Shown here: positions 12,842 through 13,817 of the stretch, piece after piece
How the letters are laid out: each line of letters starts with the position of its first letter
Position numbering within the stretch: position 1 is the stretch's first letter
Assembly (NCBI GenBank): GCA_009694245.1
Contig: SHVO01000018.1
Coordinates: 1-33,542 of the forward strand
DNA from: Rhodospirillaceae bacterium
GTDB taxonomy: Bacteria > Pseudomonadota > Alphaproteobacteria > Rhodospirillales > Rhodospirillaceae
DNA: 33,542 bases
Direction: 5' to 3'
The notes under the pieces: generated by a model
What the model was told of the DNA's origin: nothing
The model's input: only the letters and a program-made list of their open reading frames with translations
Databases searched by the model: none
Program-made: the position numbers and the translations under genes

Positions 12842-12977
12842 CCATCACAATCGGATATCGTACCGGTACAAACTGTTCAGGGCGGAGCCCTTAAAGGGTA
12901 AACCTTCCGTTCGCGCCGATTTCGTAACCGTTCTTGTGTGCTGTCCCTTAAGAAATAAAAGTTGGCTTAAGGCCGAT

Positions 12978-13046
12978 TTACTTTTTGGCCTTCTTCTTGC
13001 CCTTTTTCTTCGCAACTTTCTTCTTCGCTTTCTTTTTAGCAGCCAT
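12978..13046 (-). CDS. 22-aa lysine-rich microprotein (MAAKKKAKKKVAKKKGKKKAKK)
   Basis: Read directly from the reverse strand: ATG GCT GCT AAA AAG AAA GCG AAG AAG AAA GTT GCG AAG AAA AAG GGC AAG AAG AAG GCC AAA AAG TAA. Shine-Dalgarno AGGGGA seven nt before the ATG (13054-13059). Both AAA and AAG are used. Below the size cutoff of the ORF track. Confidence 0.72.
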   Translation of the reverse strand: MAAKKKAKKKVAKKKGKKKAKK

Positions 13047-13817
13047 GATCAAATCCCCTGTCATGAGAGTTTAGGTTACGTCTGGACACCTCGAAACATG
13101 TAAAGAACCGAACACCACGTCCGGTGTGAAACATCCAAACATTGAAGAGATAAACGCACTTAATGAAAATTCACAAGTGATTTTGCAAGGCGGGTGAATT
13201 TTTTTCTTGATTTCTGCTTCGACAGGGTTTTCGCCGCGTGGCCGCGCATCGCACTTCAGCATCCTCGTCACATGAAATCGACGCGCAGGTCGGGGTGTCC
13301 ATGGATCGCCGCGCGAAAGTCGCGCACCTCATTCCCGCACGGCCGCGCGACGCCTTCATCGCCATCACTCACGCACGTCGTCGGCATTTTTCCGGGTTTC
13401 GCATCCGAACTTTTCACGACGCGTCCGGCTGGAATCGGGCGAGGCCAGGCATTCAGAAAGTTCAGCAATTTCGCGGATTATCGCGTGCTTTTTGAAGCCG
13501 GCGGCCGAATGATCCGGCCGGTGCCGGCGGGCCGGGCGCGAGCACTTTGAATGCGCTTCGCCGGGGCGGCTTTTGCGCAAGCGCACTCGCTCTGAAGCGT
13601 CGCACGCTCGCGCATCCTGGAGCAAAATCCAGCGCGCCATGATGTCACTGACGCCGCCGGAGTCATCTCCGCGACGCCCGAATGTGACAGGCCGGCGCGT
13701 CACGCCGCGAGGGGTTGGTAAAGGAACCGTTTACGGCCGCCGGAGGCTGCCGCCGGGGGTGCACCCCTCCAAACCGGGCGACAACGGTTAAGAATCGCGA
13801 CTCGGCGGTGGCGAGTC

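Follow-up and report, generated by a model that had tools for sequence, protein, structure and literature searches.

A compact gene on the minus strand

The window analyzed here, a whole stretch of 33,542 nucleotides from a Rhodospirillaceae contig, carries on its minus strand a complete ATG-to-TAA open reading frame (ORF) at positions 13046-12978 that encodes MAAKKKAKKKVAKKKGKKKAKK, a peptide of 22 amino acids (aa) with 14 lysines, one fewer than in most sister peptides. An earlier note made from the sequence alone had described this ORF, together with an AGGGGA Shine-Dalgarno (SD) sequence, as a lysine/alanine (K/A) microprotein gene, and rereading the interval bore out both elements. The SD lies at 13059-13054 on the minus strand, 7 nt upstream of the ATG, and is invariant in sister copies. 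The peptide also stands alone as had been claimed, since the entire protein is 13 to 25 aa with no longer protein attached. Because its residues are K and A with rare V, G, S, T, or R and provide no hydrophobic face, nothing favors the suggestion of a membrane-active peptide. Two peptide variants matched no Pfam or NCBIfam family, DUF1127 included, even at an E value of 10, in searches where queries of 22 to 24 aa have little power, and literature searches on the peptide strings and on small proteins rich in lysine returned nothing relevant.

Upstream of the SD, a 5' leader stem-loop (13079-13141, minus strand) is formed by an outer stem of UGUUUGGAUG and UCCAGACG enclosing an inner CGGAC/GUUCG hairpin. 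It is preceded by a promoter-like block, TTGTGA-N17-TTATCT (13148-13176, minus strand), recognized by its conservation, and by a conserved A-rich block, AGAAATCAAGAAAAAAATTC (13196-13215, minus strand), which lies upstream of the -35 element and may be UP-element-like. A generic sigma-70 promoter scan of the locus called neither TTGTGA-N17-TTATCT nor the A-rich block, and the promoter is thus putative. Past the stop codon, the predicted transcript closes with an intrinsic terminator (12840-12811, minus strand) whose 12- to 13-bp stem, AAGCCCGCCGAGCC-AAC-GCTCGGCGGGCTT, is followed by U4 and is conserved with compensatory changes, in agreement with the strong terminator described before. The upstream neighbor, on the same strand as the ORF, encodes an AI-2E family transporter, and the gene past the terminator encodes a class V aminotransferase in convergent orientation.

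Two further structures lie between the ORF and the terminator. A hairpin of 9 pairs spans the stop codon (12953-12983, minus strand) and is followed by a U-rich stretch; the earlier note had placed a weak hairpin after the ORF, and the window copy is indeed unexceptional (shuffle fraction, 0.16), while the hairpin is significant in most sisters. Hairpin and U-rich stretch recur in most copies from the window's genus and in some from other genera, and the U-rich stretch could be a cleavage site. Beyond it lies a branched RNA of about 110 nt (12842-12950, minus strand) with an ACAA/UUGU closing helix, a long internal helix, and two hairpins. A conserved structured region between a stop codon and an intrinsic terminator, the arrangement expected of a 3'-untranslated-region (3'-UTR)-derived small RNA (sRNA), is thus present at this locus.

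Conservation of the peptide and of the RNA structures

A search with 351 bases of the locus against 60 related genomes (61 with the window's own, most of them MAGs) recovered the locus in 24 genomes, including 18 of the 19 in the window's genus when its own genome is counted. The genus consists of freshwater Rhodospirillales MAGs, and the records of matching contigs describe freshwater Rhodospirillaceae or Rhodospirillales MAGs from Lake Baikal, Lake Erken, and other sites. Many contigs of this alphaproteobacterial genus (L081, L086, L088, and others) were deposited as "Candidatus Marinimicrobia" and are apparently mislabeled. One genus copy (G018) was left out as unreadable because the contig end removes its ORF; the remaining 18 readable copies represent 17 genomes, two copies coming from the window's own assembly. 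The ORF is intact in all 17 of these genomes, where it encodes MA(A)KKKA(A)KKKVAKKKAKKKAKKK-like peptides of 22 to 25 aa; over all 18 copies, the lengths span 19 to 25 aa.

Variation among the genus copies is concentrated at third codon positions, which account for 19 of the variable columns among the 22 codons, compared to 4 at first and 5 at second positions, and for 98 minor alleles compared to 10 and 14 (24 together). In pairwise comparisons, 1,016 of 1,233 codon differences (82%) are synonymous, versus the 18 to 29% expected without constraint; these pairwise counts are phylogenetically nonindependent, and the column counts give the same bias. The earlier note had looked to sister genomes for a conserved start, stop, and SD separated by synonymous changes. 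This is the pattern observed, and insertions and deletions within the ORF are whole codons as well, which gives good support to a free-standing polycationic microprotein. The note's argument that mixed codons speak against a simple nucleotide repeat likewise held, as codon-position bias and whole-codon indels exclude such a repeat. Read in this way, the substitution pattern indicates that the 22-aa ORF is a real gene under protein-level selection. The motif also exceeds chance, as in a control search a reversed version of the pattern AGGGGA-N4-12-ATGGC(N0-3)AARAARAARGC had zero matches across 317 genomes of the order.

The region between ORF and terminator is conserved in a different manner, with long invariant runs such as GCACACAAGAACGG throughout the genus and a single branched fold. 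Covariance models of this fold hit the window with E values of 2.1e-30 (R1) and 1.5e-26 (R2). The genus model found members of genus g3 at E values of about 1e-8 to 1e-9, and g18 and g7 were weak until the model was extended. In the extended alignment, which was fitted to the structure and hence is biased toward it, 93.4% of cells are paired versus 27 to 42% with partners slid, and double-sided changes occur in 15 of 32 pairs, a level reached in 0 of 500 shuffles. RNAalifold, run on a MAFFT alignment of the genus that had not been fitted to the structure, gives a concordant result. The 5' leader stem behaves similarly, with 92.8% of cells paired versus 25 to 44% when slid and 8 pairs showing double-sided changes; across copies its outer stem remains UGUUUGGAUG/CAUCCAGACG-like with compensatory changes. 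The co-occurrence of ORF and 3' RNA is strict: among 314 genomes of the order, the extended model (R2) detected the RNA in 25, which all belong to the four ORF-bearing genera, and a single weak outlier (E = 0.02) lacks the ORF and has a different sequence. The earlier reading of the locus as a peptide gene therefore stands for the free-standing microprotein and falls short for the whole, since a conserved, covarying 3' RNA and a 5' leader stem make the gene more than a peptide gene.

Other identities for the 3' region were considered. No Rfam 15 family reached its gathering cutoff in the whole window or 12 related loci, and a further comparison gave subthreshold hits only. The genome's above-cutoff 6S RNA hit sits on contig C39, which rejects 6S RNA as the identity of the 3' RNA. 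A frameshifted longer protein or second ORF was also rejected, because stops and non-triplet indels in sisters break every frame; one frame is open through the region in the window copy, and none is kept in sisters. Spacer length ranges from 21 to 34 nt across sisters.

Distribution, copies, and losses

Three further genera of the family, g3, g7, and g18, carry the AGGGGA-preceded ORF, encoding peptides of 13 to 24 aa (for example, MAAKKKAKKKKKS and MAAKKKAKKKAKKKA) in which length shifts and composition stays; in total, the ORF is present in 4 of the family's 23 genera. A genus member that is 97% complete (G010) has neither the ORF nor the 3' RNA nor a close copy of the neighboring AI-2E transporter, and the locus is therefore dispensable in at least one relative. 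A second whole unit, encoding a 19-aa peptide, is present in the window's own assembly (G000:C63:14845-15068; L002, L003, and L079). It lies in a block that repeats the window's gene order at 50 to 85% protein identity, and the remaining members of the genus carry a single copy. For these reasons we reject a paralogue and consider contamination likelier, contig C63 probably deriving from a sister species.

Searching a class-wide sample of 385 genomes with the N-terminal pattern yielded 14 further matches outside the window's genome, of which 3 are starts of longer proteins and 11 are free-standing ORFs of 16 to 36 aa. These 11 are spread over six alphaproteobacterial families besides the window's, and a GGAG/AGGGGA-type SD precedes every one. 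Their 3' regions are unrelated to the 3' RNA of the window. Free-standing K/A micro-ORFs of 16 to 36 aa with an SD are found at L147, L148, L150, and L156 to L160 in families f158, f123, f35, f96, and f152; f96 and f123 are represented in part by near-complete genomes. In family f117 (L153 and L155), a similar peptide of 21 to 23 aa precedes a G+C-rich foldable stretch of a different kind that contains CUCUCCUCC, an anti-SD-like motif of a kind known from alphaproteobacterial sRNAs. When a strict pattern was scanned in a collection of 84,980 species, every match labeled as Gammaproteobacteria, Deltaproteobacteria, Chromatiales, Ectothiorhodospiraceae, or Thiohalophilus proved to be the beginning of a longer protein (at least 88 aa). 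Members of the window's genus also encode longer proteins (73 to 139 aa) with lysine/alanine-rich N termini (L127, L129 to L131, L134, L135, and L137), several of which share a C-terminal stretch like LxxALxEFxDNWEDHM. For K/A peptides as short as the free-standing ones, homology between families is indistinguishable from convergence.

Two proposed products of one gene

We favor, with roughly half of our confidence, a model in which one short monocistronic gene gives rise to two products, a polycationic microprotein and a stable structured 3' RNA. The promoter-like block and the unit's own terminator would define a short monocistronic transcript, whose translation would yield a microprotein of repeating KKK-A units, 13 to 25 aa in the family. 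Peptides of such K/A composition are expected to stay unfolded alone and to bind polyanions; the microprotein would therefore most likely bind nucleic acid by charge alone. Of the possible partners, RNA is the more probable one: a conserved RNA structure sits on the same transcript, and the ccaF1/CcsR1-4 system discussed below offers the nearest precedent for the layout. The branched 3' RNA, about 110 nt long and joined to the terminator, would probably be freed when the mRNA is cut in the U-rich stretch that follows the stop-codon hairpin, and the peptide may help to fold or protect its own 3' RNA or other RNAs. The two products could also act independently, since other families encode K/A peptides without the window's 3' RNA.

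What the sequences establish is selection on the ORF, an invariant SD, covarying 5' and 3' structures, their strict co-occurrence with the ORF, a terminator of the unit's own, and a convergent downstream gene. As an alternative, the gene might act through its peptide only, a nucleoid or DNA-binding polycation like a free histone H1-like or HupB tail, with a 3' structure that merely stabilizes the mRNA. The occurrence of K/A peptides in six other families with differing 3' regions fits this proposal, as does the resemblance of the KKKA repeats to tails of long proteins elsewhere. However, conservation of the 3' RNA, with invariant runs that extend genus-wide, exceeds what an mRNA stabilizer needs, and we regard a peptide-only gene as unlikely while giving it appreciable weight. 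Conversely, the locus might be a structured sRNA in which the tiny ORF is translated only so that ribosome traffic or stalling on poly-lysine steers folding or processing. The conserved structures of the leader and 3' region, the stop-codon hairpin in most g1 copies, and the general slowing of ribosomes by poly-lysine runs suit such a role, but a peptide that varies from 13 to 25 aa while its codons change freely and its amino acids are kept, and that exists elsewhere without the 3' RNA, makes this account doubtful.

Two more specialized roles have less to recommend them. With lysine at 14 of 22 codons and a terminator downstream, the ORF could be a leader peptide of an attenuator sensing charged tRNA-Lys. 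Yet the terminator closes the unit, a convergent gene lies beyond it both in the window and in most g1 and g3 neighbors, and neither a lysine gene nor a known leader family is nearby; g7 does have a codirectional gene downstream, but it encodes FG-GAP/VCBS-like repeats (judged by eye) and is not a lysine gene. Since the codirectional biosynthetic or transport operon that an amino acid attenuator would control is missing, gene order largely refutes this role, and we give it almost no credence. The size and charge of the K/A peptide are like those of the ribosomal mini-proteins eL41 (about 25 aa) and Thermus bTHX, a general likeness that could suggest a structural protein bound to the ribosome. 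A distribution restricted to 4 of 23 genera, with absence from G010, is too patchy for such a protein and its length is not fixed, which leaves this role very improbable.

The two-product gene can be compared to several known systems. The dual-function sRNAs SgrS/SgrT, RNAIII/delta-hemolysin, and Spot 42/SpfP likewise combine a tiny ORF with a conserved RNA structure on a short transcript, whereas the ORF at the window locus encodes a polycation and no target pairing site was identified. The peptide shares its KKKA/AKKK repeat composition with the tails of histone H1-like proteins, AlgP, and HupB, but in the window the protein consists of nothing but the repeat and lacks a folded domain. In Rhodobacter sphaeroides, ccaF1 encodes a small DUF1127 RNA-binding protein upstream of the 3'-UTR-derived sRNAs CcsR1-4; RNase E and CcaF1 itself take part in the maturation of these sRNAs (PMC8625941). 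Both loci place a structured RNA in the mRNA 3' region of an alphaproteobacterial small-protein gene; unlike CcaF1, the peptides described here are K/A chains of 13 to 25 aa without a DUF1127 match, and the RNA is single and branched. The resemblance is thus one of layout, without homology, and the locus probably represents a new mini-protein and a new RNA from one gene.

A bolder proposal, which we consider speculative and rather improbable, is that the K/A peptide of 13 to 25 residues binds its own cis-encoded 3' RNA as a minimal regulatory ribonucleoprotein and that free-standing K/A microproteins form an unrecognized, recurrent alphaproteobacterial class. At least seven alphaproteobacterial families carry K/A peptides, which makes the class directly testable in culturable relatives. 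Such peptides escape gene finders and ORF cutoffs as well as proteomics based on trypsin or Lys-C, which cleaves at lysine. The locus indicates that an almost pure lysine/alanine peptide, even one of 13 residues, can be a gene product maintained by selection, alongside a new conserved RNA.
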